From: a virus
IMG/VR virus record: IMGVR_UViG_3300017781_000120
Span: 1-24,978 of that record
DNA length: 24,978 nt
Reading direction: 5' to 3' (one strand)
The notes below the pieces were generated by a model. That model was given only the letters and a program-made list of their open reading frames with translations. It made no database searches and was not told the origin of the DNA. The translations under genes and the position numbers were made by a program. Shown piece after piece: positions 5,477-15,479 of the stretch (positions are counted from its first letter, which is position 1; each line of letters starts with the position of its first letter).

Positions 5477-5501
5477 AAAAAAAAAAGGGCCCGTAGGCCC
5501 T
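5477..5501 (-). terminator. Intrinsic terminator after the 151-aa gene
   Basis: On the minus strand a GC-rich 6-bp stem AGGGCC/GGCCCT (5501-5496 with 5491-5486) closes a 4-base TACG loop and is followed by a run of about ten T. This is a textbook Rho-independent terminator. It lies between the gene ending at 5522 and the polymerase start at 5458. Confidence 0.9.
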
Positions 5502-7634: not shown

Positions 7635-8819
7635 TTAGAATGGCAAGTCATTATCATGAATTGTTCCATTATTACTCCCAGCTCCAACAAGTTCACTTAA
7701 TTTTTCTTCAGGTTCATTAACCAACTTTTCAGCTATTTCTGGTCTAAGTTGTAATGATTCTTCACTAATTTTAAATACACCATCTTTGTTGCCAATACCA
7801 AAATTATTTTGAAGAACTCCTATAAACATTTTATTTGCAACATATCTAGATGCATATAATGTCAATATATCATCTTTAACTAGCATTTTTATAAGCATAT
7901 TATATGCATGACCCCAATTAGCAGGAGTAATATTAATATAATTTTCAAATTCTTTTCTAAGATATTTAAAGTTAACTTGATTCCATACTTTAGATCTTTT
8001 CATATGTTCAGAATAAAAAGCAAAAAGTAATGATATAAATGTTTCTGATTCTTTAATATTACAATTTGACATTAATGTTAAACCAATAGACACATTATCT
8101 GTATCAGTTGAACCAATCAATTCCTCCATTCTTTCAAAATCTTCTTTAGATAATTTAATTGAATCTGCTGTACAAAGTTTATTAACTTCAATGTCCATTA
8201 TTATCTTATGTTGATTATCTAATAACCATTTATAACTTTCAATGTCTTTAAAATAATTAACATATTGTCTATCAGAATGTTTATTCAAATTTTCTATAAT
8301 ATCATTATGATGCGTATTTTCCTTATCACTATTCCAATAGTGACCCGCATTAATGAATATAGAATCTTCAGGTGCATCACTTATACTTTTTTTAAAACCT
8401 AAATGATTATTATTCTTTTTAATGTATAAATATTTATCTAAATTTGGATTATTTATTACAGCATCACAATAATTTATCATTTCATCTTTATTGTATACCT
8501 TACACCAAACCTTTTCTACAGATTTTTCTAAATATTTATTAGAAATAACAACAATATCAGCTAACTCTTTATTTCTTGTAACTTTAAAATTACTTTTTTC
8601 TGCATAAATAGCTAATTTATCTCTTGATAAAGATAGATTAGGAAATCTATGTAATAGATCTACATTATTTTGAAAATGTGAATCATCAAATTTGTTATCT
8701 AAATTCAAATGCTCTTCCCAATTTGATTTTAAATTATAATGATTTGTTTGACTTGCAAAAAATTTATAATCTAGATCAATCTCAAAATCTCTAATGTTTA
8801 CGTTGTATACTCTTTTCAT
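7635..8819 (-). CDS. Tandem paralogue B, with SSB-like C-terminal tip
   Basis: A 394-residue acidic, soluble protein with no family I can name. It shares an ordered set of blocks with the gene just upstream: a FPNLSLSRDKL...KVTRNKELADIVVIS block (about residues 58-95) corresponding to FPNSPISQDRV...LTNDYEQADLYLTH, then MDIEVNKL corresponding to YDIEVNNA, then a helical C-terminal half. The two are therefore probably diverged duplicates. The first block loosely resembles a BRCT-like alpha/beta unit, but I would not name it so. A low-complexity GAGSNNG linker leads to a final HDNDLPF, which mimics the acidic D-D-x-P-F tip by which SSB recruits repair and replication partners. ATGA overlap with the upstream gene. 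Confidence 0.8.
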   Translation of the reverse strand: MKRVYNVNIRDFEIDLDYKFFASQTNHYNLKSNWEEHLNLDNKFDDSHFQNNVDLLHRFPNLSLSRDKLAIYAEKSNFKVTRNKELADIVVISNKYLEKSVEKVWCKVYNKDEMINYCDAVINNPNLDKYLYIKKNNNHLGFKKSISDAPEDSIFINAGHYWNSDKENTHHNDIIENLNKHSDRQYVNYFKDIESYKWLLDNQHKIIMDIEVNKLCTADSIKLSKEDFERMEELIGSTDTDNVSIGLTLMSNCNIKESETFISLLFAFYSEHMKRSKVWNQVNFKYLRKEFENYINITPANWGHAYNMLIKMLVKDDILTLYASRYVANKMFIGVLQNNFGIGNKDGVFKISEESLQLRPEIAEKLVNEPEEKLSELVGAGSNNGTIHDNDLPF

Positions 8820-9853
8820 ATTAATAATTTTTTATATTCTGGTTTTACTTCTACTCTAAAAGTATAAAGATCTCTGTTTTCTATCCTTATTTCTTTTCTT
8901 ACTATTGGTTCTAAATACTTAAATGATTTTTTACATAATTTAGAATTCTGTTCTAAAAATTGTATCATACCCAATGCATCAATGTGATAATAATCATTAA
9001 AATTAGATGCGTTCAACCAATATTGAACATCTTTATTTCTATTAAAATAATATAAATTAGTACCAATCTCTTGTGATAACTTCCACAATAAATGATAATT
9101 TTTATTATAATCAATAGTTGGAAGTATTGCACCAACCATTTCTTTACCATCATTACCTTGATTTATCTGACTAATAATATCACTAACCATTTGATCAGTC
9201 AATTCACACTTAGTTGCAGATTGATGTAATATTTTATCAACATCATAACAACTTGCATTATTAACTTCAATATCATATGCTATATTAACTGCAAGACCTG
9301 TTAACATCCAGGAATCATAAGGCATAGAATGTCTATCTATAGTATATTGATTAACAGAATTTTCAGCTCTATTGCAATATATAACTCTAGCTGACTCACC
9401 ATTCCTTGCATTATCTTCACAATACTTAACTATAAAAGAATTACCTTCTTCAAGTGCATCAAAATTGTAAAGTTTAGAAAACGTAGCTCTAGCATTTATA
9501 TTATCACCACAGTTATGATCTCTATGAAGGTCATAATGTGTTAAATATAAATCTGCTTGTTCATAATCATTTGTCAATGTAATATTGTGTTCTTTTAACG
9601 CTGATTTAACTCTATCTTGTGATATTGGTGAGTTAGGAAATAAAAACGCTTTTTTGTATAATGTCATATCTGGTTCATCATCTCTACCTTCTAGTATTTT
9701 TGATAATTTGTTAGTCAGATAATTTGACTCATCTATATATACTTTCTCTATTGTGCCTGCATTATCAACTATGACCCCATAAGGATCACAGTCAATAACG
9801 AAGTGCTCAATAGCATCAGGATTAAACTCCTGGTGTACTGATTTATTTGCCAT
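8816..9853 (-). CDS. Tandem paralogue A, unknown function
   Basis: A 345-residue acidic soluble protein sharing the conserved blocks FPNSPISQDRVKSAL / EQADLYLTH (about residues 72-107) and YDIEVNNASCYDVDK (near 193) with the following 394-residue protein, so the pair looks like an old tandem duplication. It lacks the SSB-like tail of its paralogue and ends in a basic, aromatic strand. No catalytic motif, zinc site or membrane segment is seen. It begins one base after the MoxR-type ATPase stop and overlaps the next gene by ATGA. Genomic order (VWA protein, AAA+ ATPase, two paralogues) makes these plausible clients or partners of the ATPase; that is inference. Confidence 0.78.
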   Translation of the reverse strand: MANKSVHQEFNPDAIEHFVIDCDPYGVIVDNAGTIEKVYIDESNYLTNKLSKILEGRDDEPDMTLYKKAFLFPNSPISQDRVKSALKEHNITLTNDYEQADLYLTHYDLHRDHNCGDNINARATFSKLYNFDALEEGNSFIVKYCEDNARNGESARVIYCNRAENSVNQYTIDRHSMPYDSWMLTGLAVNIAYDIEVNNASCYDVDKILHQSATKCELTDQMVSDIISQINQGNDGKEMVGAILPTIDYNKNYHLLWKLSQEIGTNLYYFNRNKDVQYWLNASNFNDYYHIDALGMIQFLEQNSKLCKKSFKYLEPIVRKEIRIENRDLYTFRVEVKPEYKKLLI

Positions 9854-9854
9854 A

Positions 9855-11117
9855 CTATTTAATTGTCATTTTAATGATTTCTGGATTCATCATCATTTTG
9901 TTAAATTTAGATTTATTACCATTAAATATAGTTCTTACAACTAAGTATTTAAGATCATTAGTAAAATAATCTTTAGTACAAAGTGCAATTAATCTATCAG
10001 TAATCTTTTGTGATACAGTTTTCTCTTTTGAGTATACCACGGCATAATTTGCTAGTCTTGTTGCTAATGTAGAAGCAATATCTGCTCTATAAGCATCATC
10101 TTTACCAACACATGATCCAAGTTCTCCAAGTATATACTCTTGGTTATCGTGAGTTAATAAATCTTTTGGTGTAACTAATTTATCTAATTTATTATTAATA
10201 AATGTAGTAAACATAGAAGCAAACACATCTCCAACAGATCCTTCACCAATCATTTGAATTAATAATAAGTTATCCTCAAAACTTTCAAAACTTGATATTG
10301 CATTAAAGAAAGCTGTGATAGATCTTGCATTGGTCTCTTGTGTTACAAGCTCTGGATTTAGTAACAAGAAGTTAATACATCTTGAATCTATACCTGCACC
10401 TTCTGCCCAACGAGCCCATACTTCAATATCAAATTTAAGATTAGCAGTAATATATCTTGTCTTTTGTGCTGAGTCAATACTATTTACCATATAATCACCA
10501 TTATCAGGATTAGATGTTAAAATAATATGCCAGTCTTTTGGTAAAGTCCAAGAAATATATGTCTGTCTATCTACTAATTCCATAACTGCTTGAATAAACC
10601 TCATATCTGCACGGTTCCAATCATCAAGAAGTAATATACCTCCTTCTTTTTGATTTGAAATCCATTCAGGTGCACAATATGACATTCTATTCTTACTTGT
10701 CATTTTCCAACCTTGTCTAAGGTATTCTTCAACAGCCAGTTCATCAACCCATTGTCCAACTTTTTTAGTCATAGTTGCATCTGCAACTTGTGAAGACGCT
10801 GCAGCTTTTTGTGCTGCTGTATATTGAAGATCATCAATCTTCTTTGTTACTTGTTTCTCTTTATACATTTGAAATTGTCTTACTGGAAAACCAACAAGAT
10901 CACCAAGCTCTTCTATTTGTGCTAAATTTAATTTAACAAAATTTAAATCATTTTCTTTAGCTAAATCAACAACTGCTGAAGTCTTACCAATACCAGATTC
11001 ACCAACAATTTCTACCGCAACAGGGTTTTTGTTCCCTTCTTGTAAGAACCTATTGTTCTTAATTATATGATTTACAAAATCTTTACATTCATCAATGTTT
11101 AAATTTACTTGTGCCAT
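9855..11117 (-). CDS. MoxR-type AAA+ ATPase
   Basis: A 420-residue ATPase with a Walker A at residues 39-46 (GESGIGKT), Walker B GILLLDDWNRAD (160-171), sensor-1 region ILTSNPDNGDY (199-209) and a downstream Arg in the SAQKTRY segment. The order and the LDDWNRA signature are those of the MoxR/dynein-related AAA_5 group. MoxR ATPases act with VWA-domain partners as chaperones that insert metals or remodel complexes (RavA-ViaA, NorQ-NorD); the gene just upstream encodes exactly such a VWA protein. The C-terminal ~170 residues are helical. In a phage early operon the target is unknown: replisome or host-complex remodelling is possible. Family call is firm; role is open. Confidence 0.87.
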   Translation of the reverse strand: MAQVNLNIDECKDFVNHIIKNNRFLQEGNKNPVAVEIVGESGIGKTSAVVDLAKENDLNFVKLNLAQIEELGDLVGFPVRQFQMYKEKQVTKKIDDLQYTAAQKAAASSQVADATMTKKVGQWVDELAVEEYLRQGWKMTSKNRMSYCAPEWISNQKEGGILLLDDWNRADMRFIQAVMELVDRQTYISWTLPKDWHIILTSNPDNGDYMVNSIDSAQKTRYITANLKFDIEVWARWAEGAGIDSRCINFLLLNPELVTQETNARSITAFFNAISSFESFEDNLLLIQMIGEGSVGDVFASMFTTFINNKLDKLVTPKDLLTHDNQEYILGELGSCVGKDDAYRADIASTLATRLANYAVVYSKEKTVSQKITDRLIALCTKDYFTNDLKYLVVRTIFNGNKSKFNKMMMNPEIIKMTIK

Positions 11118-11131
11118 TCTTTTTCTTTTTT

Positions 11132-12292
11132 TTAATTAATTTGAATTTTTTGTCCTGGTAACTCTTCATTTATATTACAACGAGTGCTGTGTACCCACAA
11201 TGTATTTGCTGGACAGTTTTCTGGTGTATATGCTTCACCATCTGTTAAATATATTAGAGCTGTATAAACCCCTTTCTTTTCATTAAATAAGTCTACAACA
11301 GGCTGAAAGCTTGTGCCCCCCCTACCTTTTATTTCCCAATCTTTTCTGGGATTAAATTTTTCTACTGAATTTATTTCAGTGTCACATTGTGCAACAGTGA
11401 TCATATGACCGGTCTTGTGCATGTGACATAACTCATTCATAAATTCTTTAAGTTCATCATTAGATACAGATCCACTTGTATCAACACCTACAAGAATATT
11501 ATTCTTGAATTTAATTTTGAGTCCTGGATTATCACTATATCTTTTATTATACTTACGCCTAAGCTTCTTTGTATAACTAATAGTTGAATTACCAACAAAT
11601 CTTTTTAAATAAGCCTTCCAATCAAATGATGGTGGCTCAAGTGTTCTAAGTCTACTTATTAAACCTGCTAACTCACCTGGTATATTACCCTGTCTTTTTT
11701 CAGTTTGTTCTGCAGTTTCTTTTAGTTGATGTTCAACTTGTTTTTGAACAAGTTTTTTTTCAGCTTCAGATAAATCATCAAATTCATCCCAAGTTTTATG
11801 ATCATACTGACTATCACCATCCATTTTACCTAATAAAGAATCTAATGAAGGACATGTACCTTCACATTGTGCTGCTTCTTCTAAAAGTCTATAATATTCT
11901 TTTGTACCTGCTTTTTCAGGAAGATTTAGTTCAGGAAATGTTTCTAATGTCAAACCTCCATCTGGTAAATAGTCATCCCATATATATTGATTAATTTCTA
12001 AATCTGCTGCAATATTAAATAGTTTATGATCAGAATAAAGATCTCTCATTATCATATGTCCAAATGAAACATGAAGTAACTCATGTTTAATTAAACCTAT
12101 TTGATGTTTATCAGGTAGACTTATAAAAAAATCTGGGTTAATAGATAATTGAATACCTATACCATTTTTACTGACACCTGCAGTAGGTATATCTTTACGC
12201 ATTGTTTTATTTAAACCAATCAAAAAGAGCCCGTAAAAGGGCTCATTTAATATTAGTGTTTTGCTAGCTCTTGCTAGTTTTTCTGCTACCAT
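11132..12292 (-). CDS. VWA-domain protein with HExxH metallopeptidase-like N-terminus (DUF2201-like)
   Basis: A 386-residue two-part protein. The N-terminal part has HELLH (70-74) with a further His at 79 and NIAADLEIN (93-101), a zinc-metallopeptidase-like arrangement typical of the domain that precedes VWA in DUF2201 proteins. A charged, acidic linker (about 140-200) follows. The C-terminal VWA domain has the metal-ion-dependent adhesion site: DTSGSVS (271-277), GGTSF (325-329) and LTDGE (349-353). It overlaps its upstream gene by 7 bases (ATGGTAG) and is followed 14 bases later by the MoxR-type ATPase, its expected partner. A terminator-shaped hairpin lies inside codons about 16-24. Whether it is an active protease is uncertain; the zinc site looks intact. 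Confidence 0.85.
   Translation of the reverse strand: MVAEKLARASKTLILNEPFYGLFLIGLNKTMRKDIPTAGVSKNGIGIQLSINPDFFISLPDKHQIGLIKHELLHVSFGHMIMRDLYSDHKLFNIAADLEINQYIWDDYLPDGGLTLETFPELNLPEKAGTKEYYRLLEEAAQCEGTCPSLDSLLGKMDGDSQYDHKTWDEFDDLSEAEKKLVQKQVEHQLKETAEQTEKRQGNIPGELAGLISRLRTLEPPSFDWKAYLKRFVGNSTISYTKKLRRKYNKRYSDNPGLKIKFKNNILVGVDTSGSVSNDELKEFMNELCHMHKTGHMITVAQCDTEINSVEKFNPRKDWEIKGRGGTSFQPVVDLFNEKKGVYTALIYLTDGEAYTPENCPANTLWVHSTRCNINEELPGQKIQIN
12222..12244 (-). terminator. Terminator-like hairpin inside the 5' end of the VWA gene
   Basis: The minus strand has a perfect GAGCCC/GGGCTC stem (12244-12239 with 12232-12227), a 6-base loop and then five T (12226-12222), 49-71 bases into the coding sequence. 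By shape it is an intrinsic terminator, but the same bases encode what may be a conserved EPFYGLFLIG segment, so it could be fortuitous. Confidence 0.45.
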
Positions 12293-12630
12293 TTTAATTG
12301 TATTTTTATATCATCAATAAATTTATGATGTTGTTTTATCATACTTATTAATGAATTATTAAACTCATCTTCAACTAATTCTTTTGTTTCTTTGTTTGGT
12401 TTTAATTTAGAAATAATAGGAAACAACTCTTCCCAAGGAACTAATTTATTTTCAATCTCAGGAAACATTTGTATAAAATCATATCTTTTATGATTATGTA
12501 AATATTTACCAATTAACATTAGTTGGATTTCTGAAGGATTGGAATTTTTTAATGCTTCTAATCCTAATGATCTATCTTCACCATTAGCTGATAATATAAC
12601 TTTAAATTTTTGATAATCTGATTTAGTCAT
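12286..12630 (-). CDS. Hypothetical protein
   Basis: A 114-residue, mostly helical cytoplasmic protein with no family I recognise. It starts MTKSDYQKFKVIL and contains IQLMLIGKYLHNHKRYDFIQMFPE, followed by alternating charged helices. It lies inside a chain of overlapping genes: 8 bases shared with the gene upstream and 7 with the VWA gene downstream, so it is certainly co-transcribed and probably translationally coupled to the MoxR/VWA pair. A role as a small adaptor for that pair would fit the location but nothing in the sequence shows it. Confidence 0.65.
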   Translation of the reverse strand: MTKSDYQKFKVILSANGEDRSLGLEALKNSNPSEIQLMLIGKYLHNHKRYDFIQMFPEIENKLVPWEELFPIISKLKPNKETKELVEDEFNNSLISMIKQHHKFIDDIKIQLKW

Positions 12631-14765: not shown

Positions 14766-15479
14766 TTAAAGTTCAAAATCTGAACCACTTCCACTTTGTC
14801 CTTCAAAGTTTGTAACAGTTTGATTTGTGTCAGCTTGTTTCTTAGCCAAAGCTCTTACATGTGTACCTCTATCAAAAGTAAGAAGTCTTGATGGCTCTTT
14901 ACTTAAACTTTCTACAGGTATCCCATCTTTAGACATTCTTGGTAAATAAAGATCATTATTTATATAACCATCTTTGTTTTCCCATTCTCTTGATCCAATA
15001 CAAGCATTAAAGAAATCACTATTACCAAGAACTTTATTACACTGAGTCATAAAATCTTCAATAGTCCCCGCCTCAATAGCATCTAATGCATCTCTTTTGC
15101 CTAATTGTTCAGCCAAAAATATCATTGATTTAAGAACTTCTTGATCTCTTTCAATCTCACGCCCACTTGGTAATGTAGTATCTTTAAATGGATAAGGGCT
15201 ATATCTAACTCTACCTACTTGTCCTTCATATCTACCTGCACTTTGGTTATTCATATCTTTATAAAAACCTTCAAATTCACCAGTGATTGGCTCTGACTCT
15301 ACATGTAACATAATATTATATGCATCAGAATCATATGGCGTTTGATCAAAAGTAATACTATTGATTTTAATAATGTGATTACCTGGTCCCAACACAGGTT
15401 TAGTTCTGCCACTACCTGCAGACATGTCTTTAGTACTTAACATAATTTTTGTTTTTTTTGTTTCTAATTCACTGTTCAT
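14766..15479 (-). CDS. Putative ssDNA-binding protein
   Basis: A 237-residue protein next to a RecA-fold ATPase and the primase. The first ~110 residues look like an OB-type beta-barrel (GPGNHIIKINSITFDQ, YNIMLHVESEP, GFYKDM...YEGQVGRVRYS). The middle is helical, and the C-terminus is a Thr/Ser/Gly-rich linker ending in GSGSDFEL. A globular DNA-binding core plus flexible acidic-tipped tail is the plan of phage and bacterial SSBs. I do not see a named Pfam signature, so the call rests on architecture and location. The start may instead be Met13 (15443), which is preceded by an A-rich stretch like other starts here. It lies 11 bases after the ATPase gene and ahead of a structured gap. Confidence 0.55.
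   Translation of the reverse strand: MNSELETKKTKIMLSTKDMSAGSGRTKPVLGPGNHIIKINSITFDQTPYDSDAYNIMLHVESEPITGEFEGFYKDMNNQSAGRYEGQVGRVRYSPYPFKDTTLPSGREIERDQEVLKSMIFLAEQLGKRDALDAIEAGTIEDFMTQCNKVLGNSDFFNACIGSREWENKDGYINNDLYLPRMSKDGIPVESLSKEPSRLLTFDRGTHVRALAKKQADTNQTVTNFEGQSGSGSDFEL

Follow-up and report, generated by a model that had tools for sequence, protein, structure and literature searches.

A conserved AAA+ ATPase/VWA-metallopeptidase gene pair with three related partner genes in a phage replication operon

We analyzed a block of genes in the virus record IMGVR_UViG_3300017781_000120, reading the complete record (24,978 bases) as one window. The block encodes a MoxR-like AAA+ ATPase (here, AAA), a protein that joins a metallopeptidase domain to a VWA domain (here, VWA), and two paralogues downstream of AAA for which we use the working names PA and PB. 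A fifth gene, g114, lies upstream of VWA and is homologous to part of PB. Few genes of the surrounding operon are as conserved as AAA, and PB is the most variable gene that we measured. AAA-VWA pairs are already known in phages, namely N4 gp24/gp25 and the pairs of jumbo phages. What is new here is the set of three related partners, the contrast between a frozen motor and fast partners, a PB tip that in some members of the clade resembles bacterial SSB C-termini, and a conserved hairpin within the VWA gene; we found no description of the partner proteins or the hairpin in the databases and literature searched. We tentatively read the block as an AAA+ remodelling machine that would act in phage genome replication or recombination with dedicated partners, most likely substrate adaptors, and our confidence in this reading falls somewhat short of even.

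The features of the block, in the direction of transcription, are as follows:
12286 to 12630, minus strand: g114, small helical protein, the stop codon of which overlaps the VWA start (ATGGTAG)
11132 to 12292, minus strand: VWA, with a DUF2201_N zincin-like metallopeptidase domain and a DUF2201 VWA domain
12227 to 12244, minus strand: conserved hairpin at VWA codons 17 to 22, GAGCCC-TTTTAC-GGGCTC followed by a T run, terminator-like
12071 to 12085 and 11468 to 11482, minus strand: HELLH and MIDAS (DTSGS) motifs within VWA
9855 to 11117, minus strand: AAA, MoxR-like AAA+ ATPase
10980 to 11003 and 10620 to 10634, minus strand: Walker A (GESGIGKT) and Walker B (LLLDD, with Asp replacing the catalytic Glu) motifs of AAA
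8816 to 9853, minus strand: PA, with a likely BRCT-like domain and a helical C-terminal domain, without annotated family
9497 to 9664, minus strand: predicted BRCT-like region of PA (approximately residues 64 to 119), with weak Pfam BRCT matches in relatives
7635 to 8819, minus strand: PB, with an N-terminal strand pair, a likely BRCT-like domain, a helical-repeat C-terminal domain, and a disordered tail
8454 to 8666, minus strand: predicted BRCT-like region of PB (approximately residues 52 to 122), from the AlphaFold2 model and Foldseek
7638 to 7649, minus strand: C-terminal tip of PB, DLPF, resembling bacterial SSB C-termini

An earlier note on this DNA had described VWA, AAA, and the two paralogues as packed without gaps in a replication operon. 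All four open reading frames (ORFs) lie where it placed them on the minus strand, and the packing is as it described: 14 nucleotides (nt) separate VWA from AAA, 1 nt separates AAA from PA, and PA and PB overlap by 4 nt. The context also agrees. The operon runs, on the minus strand, from a DnaB-like helicase through a Sak4-like annealing protein, an SSB candidate, primase, RusA, and two small DUF proteins to g114, VWA, AAA, PA, and PB, followed by a PD-(D/E)XK exonuclease and a family-B polymerase. The earlier note overlooked g114 and the hairpin inside VWA.

A scan of IMG/VR with AAA yielded 514 relatives, the best 80 of which were retained, and small scans with PA and PB supplied a few more. 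In every sufficiently long locus from this first scan, the order g114-like gene, VWA, AAA, PA, PB, exonuclease is retained. Because these loci had been picked via AAA, we retested the linkage starting from PB (307 relatives, 80 retained; many contigs are common to the two sets). AAA-PA-PB is retained in 67 of the 67 PB-scan loci with enough upstream sequence; VWA lies directly before AAA in 64 of them, and two AAA pieces precede PA in the other 3. Median spacing among the relatives is 1 nt from AAA to PA and -4 nt from PA to PB, while the exonuclease is placed more loosely (median 53 nt from the block, up to 2 kb). In the relatives, too, the block sits between RusA and the exonuclease of the replication operon. 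The earlier note had proposed this comparison and would have given up its idea had the four genes been unlinked in related phages; we saw no such case, and the block is present in every relative with enough sequence. Loci L027, L034, L035, L042, L048, L061, and L074 have an extra ORF of approximately 128 to 136 amino acids between VWA and AAA. The AAA search also hit two human-gut sequences, MT837937 and MT838754, which were considered as possible crAss-like relatives and then dropped, given that their other genes read as bacterial.

The rates at which the genes of this operon change differ widely. Median pairwise identity among the relatives is 84% for AAA, 84% for DnaB, 78% for Sak4, 73% for VWA, 69% for the polymerase, 58% for both the SSB candidate and the primase, 54% for the exonuclease, 46% for g184, 43% for PA, and 27% for PB. 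Ratios of nonsynonymous to synonymous substitution (dN/dS), obtained by simple Nei-Gojobori counting, point the same way: 0.06 for AAA, 0.08 for DnaB, 0.10 for VWA, 0.21 for g184, 0.22 for PA, and 0.34 for PB. These values come from close pairs, because dS is nearly saturated in distant pairs and the distant-pair ratios were discarded. PA and PB are therefore fast-evolving yet constrained. They are plausible as either clients or adaptors, and the contrast between their rates and that of the motor favors adaptors.

BLASTP hardly shows that PA and PB are related (E 0.007 across 31 residues). Profile-profile comparison does so over nearly the whole length, with 94% probability and E 1e-7, whereas unrelated profiles from the same operon reach no more than 12%; the earlier note was thus right to call them paralogues. 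The g114 profile aligns with the C-terminal helical domain of PB (hhalign 87.8%, E 3e-6), while unrelated proteins of the operon stay at or below 0.3%. The profile also retrieves 12 PB proteins below E 1e-3. Virtually every relative has a g114 counterpart immediately upstream of VWA. Because the g114 stop lies within ATGGTAG, which also contains the VWA start, translation of the two genes is probably coupled.

AlphaFold2 models of PA and PB have a mean predicted local distance difference test (pLDDT) score of 89.9 and 84.6, respectively, and both proteins likely contain a BRCT-like domain. In the PB model, strands and helices of this region follow the order b-a-b-b-a-b-a, and a Foldseek search of Protein Data Bank (PDB) structures places BRCT chains on top (E > 0.4, best probability 0.89) and helical-repeat proteins lower. 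For PA, 7 of 50 members give weak Pfam BRCT matches with E no higher than 1 (best 0.0083). Of five phage records with any BRCT match, four have it in PA (E 5e-4 to 3e-3 in these four), judged from locus coordinates. A structure search with PA gave no convincing whole-protein match, and a PDB sequence search with the PA and PB profiles returned no relative. Among predicted viral structures, PB matches four uncharacterized proteins (E 7e-10 to 1e-5), of which a crAss-like phage contributes one and a single podovirus two; the gut phages ctYsL76 and ctz6O13 are among the sources of these fold matches. Given these fold matches, the PB family probably extends to other phages. By tblastn, PA, PB, and their consensus sequences have no relatives in 50,697 phage records.

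The core pair is well conserved in its motifs. VWA matches DUF2201_N (E 3e-20) and the DUF2201 VWA domain (E 7e-16). The intact HELLH site pointed out in the earlier note occupies residues 70 to 74. Across 84 relatives its H, E, and H positions never vary, and the same holds for E99 and for the MIDAS residues D271, S273, S275, T327, and D351. With both domains, HExxH, and MIDAS, VWA is a DUF2201 metallopeptidase-VWA protein of the N4 gp25 type, and it may be an active peptidase. Relatives of VWA occur in 433 of the 50,697 phage records. The label of its family in PHROGs (phrog_1314) is "HNH endonuclease," a name carried into RefSeq phage records such as NC_013692 and NC_031039; the label disagrees with the proteins themselves, which are DUF2201 metallopeptidase/VWA proteins.

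AAA belongs to phrog_1297 (E 6e-35) and matches AAA_5 at E 0.0027, under the cut-off. Walker A (G39 to T46), the sensor-1 residue N203, and the arginine R221 are invariant in 86 sequences. To this extent the earlier description as a MoxR-type ATPase stands, with Walker A, sensor-1 Asn, and the arginine finger present; the catalytic glutamate of Walker B does not fit it. Walker B reads LLLDD in 86 of 86 sequences, while eight other lineages have Glu at the catalytic position. Because Asp replaces this Glu, we call the protein MoxR-like, and altered hydrolysis would be expected. AAA presumably forms a hexamer.

As the earlier note reported, one paralogue ends in an SSB-like tip: the C-terminus of PB reads ...IHDNDLPF and is preceded by a tail with pLDDT under 50, which we take as disordered. 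Across the first-scan loci (up to approximately 17 kb around the block), PB is the only sense-strand ORF ending in [DE]x(0-3)[ILVM]PF. An [LI]PF end occurs in 18 of 42 non-redundant PB proteins (under 70% identity), and those 18 share 20 to 67% pairwise identity. With the tip in only approximately 40% of non-redundant PB proteins, the module cannot depend on it. On a tree of AAA and VWA, its distribution needs at least six changes, as would fit an ancient feature with several losses or, alternatively, repeated gain. By analogy with the SSB C-terminus, which docks many genome-maintenance proteins (PMC10164576), the tip may serve as an SSB mimic. The likeness to SSB is confined to the tip, as no OB-fold hit was found among the 50 best listed structure matches of the PB model. 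DLPF could instead be a functionless leftover, arisen by chance or inherited, and its absence from the other non-redundant PB proteins and its repeated changes on the tree would fit this; we consider it unlikely, as the tip is retained in PB proteins of such low identity despite adjoining tail residues that cannot be aligned, and none of the other ORFs in the loci carries it. The phage's own SSB candidate (14766 to 15479) was named from its position and tail alone and matched no SSB profile; its C-terminus, DF[DE]L, is invariant in all relatives, unlike bacterial SSB tips.

The hairpin inside VWA was first flagged by a scan as a terminator-like site. In these genes, the hairpin codons CCC, GGG, and CTC account for 4.9, 6.4, and 1.8%, respectively, of all codons for the amino acids concerned; at the hairpin they are used by 38 of 46, 45 of 51, and 38 of 49 members. 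Among 1163 codon windows across 12 genes, the hairpin window shows the strongest synonymous constraint (17.7, versus a mean of 2.4 and a standard deviation of 1.5). All six stem pairs are retained in 53 of 59 distinct sequences, and the stem is lost in six. Two stem pairs are altered on both sides, as in compensatory change, and loci L002 and L003 retain the six pairs despite a Pro to Ala replacement. None of 500 shuffles reached the observed pairing or covariation score, for which the tool's caveat concerning relatedness applies, and slid versions all score lower. A DNA operator was considered and is less likely, because variant stems still pair through G-U on the sense strand. The GC-rich stem and U tract on that strand have the architecture of an intrinsic terminator and may terminate transcription; the hairpin is possibly an RNA attenuator that stops transcription when VWA is untranslated, which we favor over a protein-binding hairpin. 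A search of Rfam found nothing relevant. A second, weaker hairpin (CTAGC-AAGA-GCTAG, 12263 to 12278) lies just upstream of the conserved one, and a strong terminator-like hairpin with an 8-T tail (5486 to 5501, minus strand) lies between a 151-amino-acid gene and the polymerase gene.

The best annotated relative of the polymerase is that of Cellulophaga phage phi14:2 (order Crassvirales), and Sak4, primase, RusA, exonuclease, g184, and polymerase families are common to the two phages. We infer that the phage in the window belongs to Crassvirales, in a marine crAss-like group. In the half of the phi14:2 genome examined, the AAA/VWA block was not found, and a single small gene lies between RusA and the exonuclease. 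The neighboring genes are thus present in phi14:2 with the block itself missing from the half examined, which suggests that a crAss-like replication operon either acquired the block as a cassette or lost it. Contigs of this phage group (L098 to L100) also occur in two bacterial metagenome-assembled genomes with different labels, Campylobacteraceae and Pseudomonadales, where they are probably viral sequence caught in the binning; this does not settle the host. The window also encodes a spore-photoproduct-lyase-like protein (1650 to 2486; PF20903, E 1e-15), possibly for repair of DNA photoproducts.

In the remodelling reading, AAA would be the motor ring and VWA its cofactor, as in NorQ/NorD and RavA/ViaA. 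PA, PB, and g114 would be dedicated partners sharing a helical-repeat module that may dock on the motor or VWA. Variable host or phage targets in DNA transactions would be caught by the BRCT-like domain and, in numerous lineages, also by the PB tail that resembles SSB. The motor would then be held nearly constant as the adaptors change fast, tracking their targets, and the translational overlap and RNA hairpin would control how much of the machine is made compared with g114. In favor of this reading are the retained gene order with its tight spacing, the contrast in rates, three related partners around one motor, the likely BRCT-like fold, the DLPF tip confined to PB, the position of the block among replication genes, and the phi14:2 operon without the block.

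We weighed three other explanations. The block could serve host takeover or counter-defence, dismantling or cleaving a host defence or DNA-repair hub, with PA and PB recognizing targets in an arms race. PB has the highest dN/dS measured, followed by PA (level with g184), the metallopeptidase site is intact, mimicry of the SSB C-terminus would target host SSB-binding proteins, and conflict biology offers known examples of ternary MoxR-vWA-X systems (PMC7159879). However, counter-defence genes are typically patchy, whereas this block is strictly kept in every relative; the conservation of AAA equals that of the replicative helicase, and defence families went unmatched apart from weak P-loop hits, so we hold this explanation to be doubtful. 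A chaperone-peptidase for virion assembly or maturation, with PA and PB as scaffolds or clients, follows the proposal published for homologous jumbo-phage pairs (Iyer et al. 2021, PMC7824862). We judge it decidedly unlikely, given the location of the block between RusA and the exonuclease and the helicase and polymerase that also neighbor the N4-like pair, neither of which is decisive. Finally, PA and PB as clients, a variable two-protein complex needing AAA/VWA for assembly or metal loading, would resemble the NorQ/NorD machine, which acts in maturing a product encoded in the same operon (PMC9976466), and would fit their place directly after AAA, but is quite improbable, as a conserved motor with a client at 27% median identity would be unusual and a docking module better fits g114, which precedes VWA and is related to the C-terminal domain of PB.

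Several points weigh against the remodelling reading with adaptors. All linkage evidence comes from one phage clade, and the fast evolution of PA and PB can also be produced by weak constraint. For PA, PB, and g114, no solved or annotated relative was found. The Pfam BRCT match stays under the curated cut-off (best 17.4 bits versus 21.3), no PDB fold match for PB reaches E 0.001, and the tip is absent from 24 of the 42 non-redundant PB proteins. A more elaborate version, in which an Asp-Walker-B AAA+/VWA-zincin motor with BRCT-like/helical-repeat adaptors would seize a host genome-maintenance hub by SSB-tail mimicry, its output set by an attenuator inside VWA, seems to us improbable.

Phage MoxR-VWA pairs are common, and their function is not established. 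The earlier note was correct in saying so; for the pair of jumbo phages, Iyer et al. 2021 (PMC7824862) proposed a role in assembling virions that includes the processing of peptides. The fast partners beside a frozen motor indicate where a target should be sought. If PA and PB are adaptors, their binding partners would reveal what phage AAA+/VWA machines act on, and the PB tip and the in-frame hairpin are concrete features that can be tested, by binding and regulation, respectively.

Among known systems, the closest is the described N4 pair of gp24 (AAA ATPase) and gp25 (vWFA) (PMC2784036). N4 and its relatives share both families (phrog_1297/phrog_1314) with the window, in adjoining genes with helicase and polymerase close by. 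They differ in having the reverse gene order and Glu rather than Asp in Walker B; no PA/PB homologue was found near the pair, and its small adjoining genes appeared, on visual inspection, unlike g114. In the jumbo phage AR9, AAA likewise adjoins a zincin-vWA fusion (PMC7824862), and the region inspected lacks BRCT-like or helical partners, unlike the block here. More broadly, no PA or PB was found beside the AAA-VWA pair in the Moorella, AR9, AD45, LIT1, G, Pag-Yong1, Va1, XC38, and S-TIM66 regions, so these nine annotated-phage regions do not support the idea that PA and PB accompany every phage AAA-VWA pair. MoxR-vWA-VMAP ternary conflict systems (PMC7159879) also combine a motor, a VWA protein, and a variable third component; they are bacterial, whereas ours is a core phage block, and their third component was unrelated in the searches run. 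Pfam, NCBIfam, and PADLOC gave no VMAP match for PA, PB, or g114, and we did not check whether these libraries hold a VMAP model. PB resembles bacterial SSB, with its DDDIPF C-terminus (PMC10164576, PMC5872125), in a disordered tail, here ending -DLPF; it differs in having no SSB-like fold among its structure matches, and the C-terminus of the phage-encoded SSB candidate is DF[DE]L. NorQ/NorD and RavA/ViaA have no described metallopeptidase domain and no multi-paralogue partners, and the target of NorQD is a respiratory metalloenzyme; in their architecture of a MoxR AAA+ protein with a VWA protein and in the MIDAS motif they are like the pair in the window, and they come with a mechanistic working model (PMC9976466).

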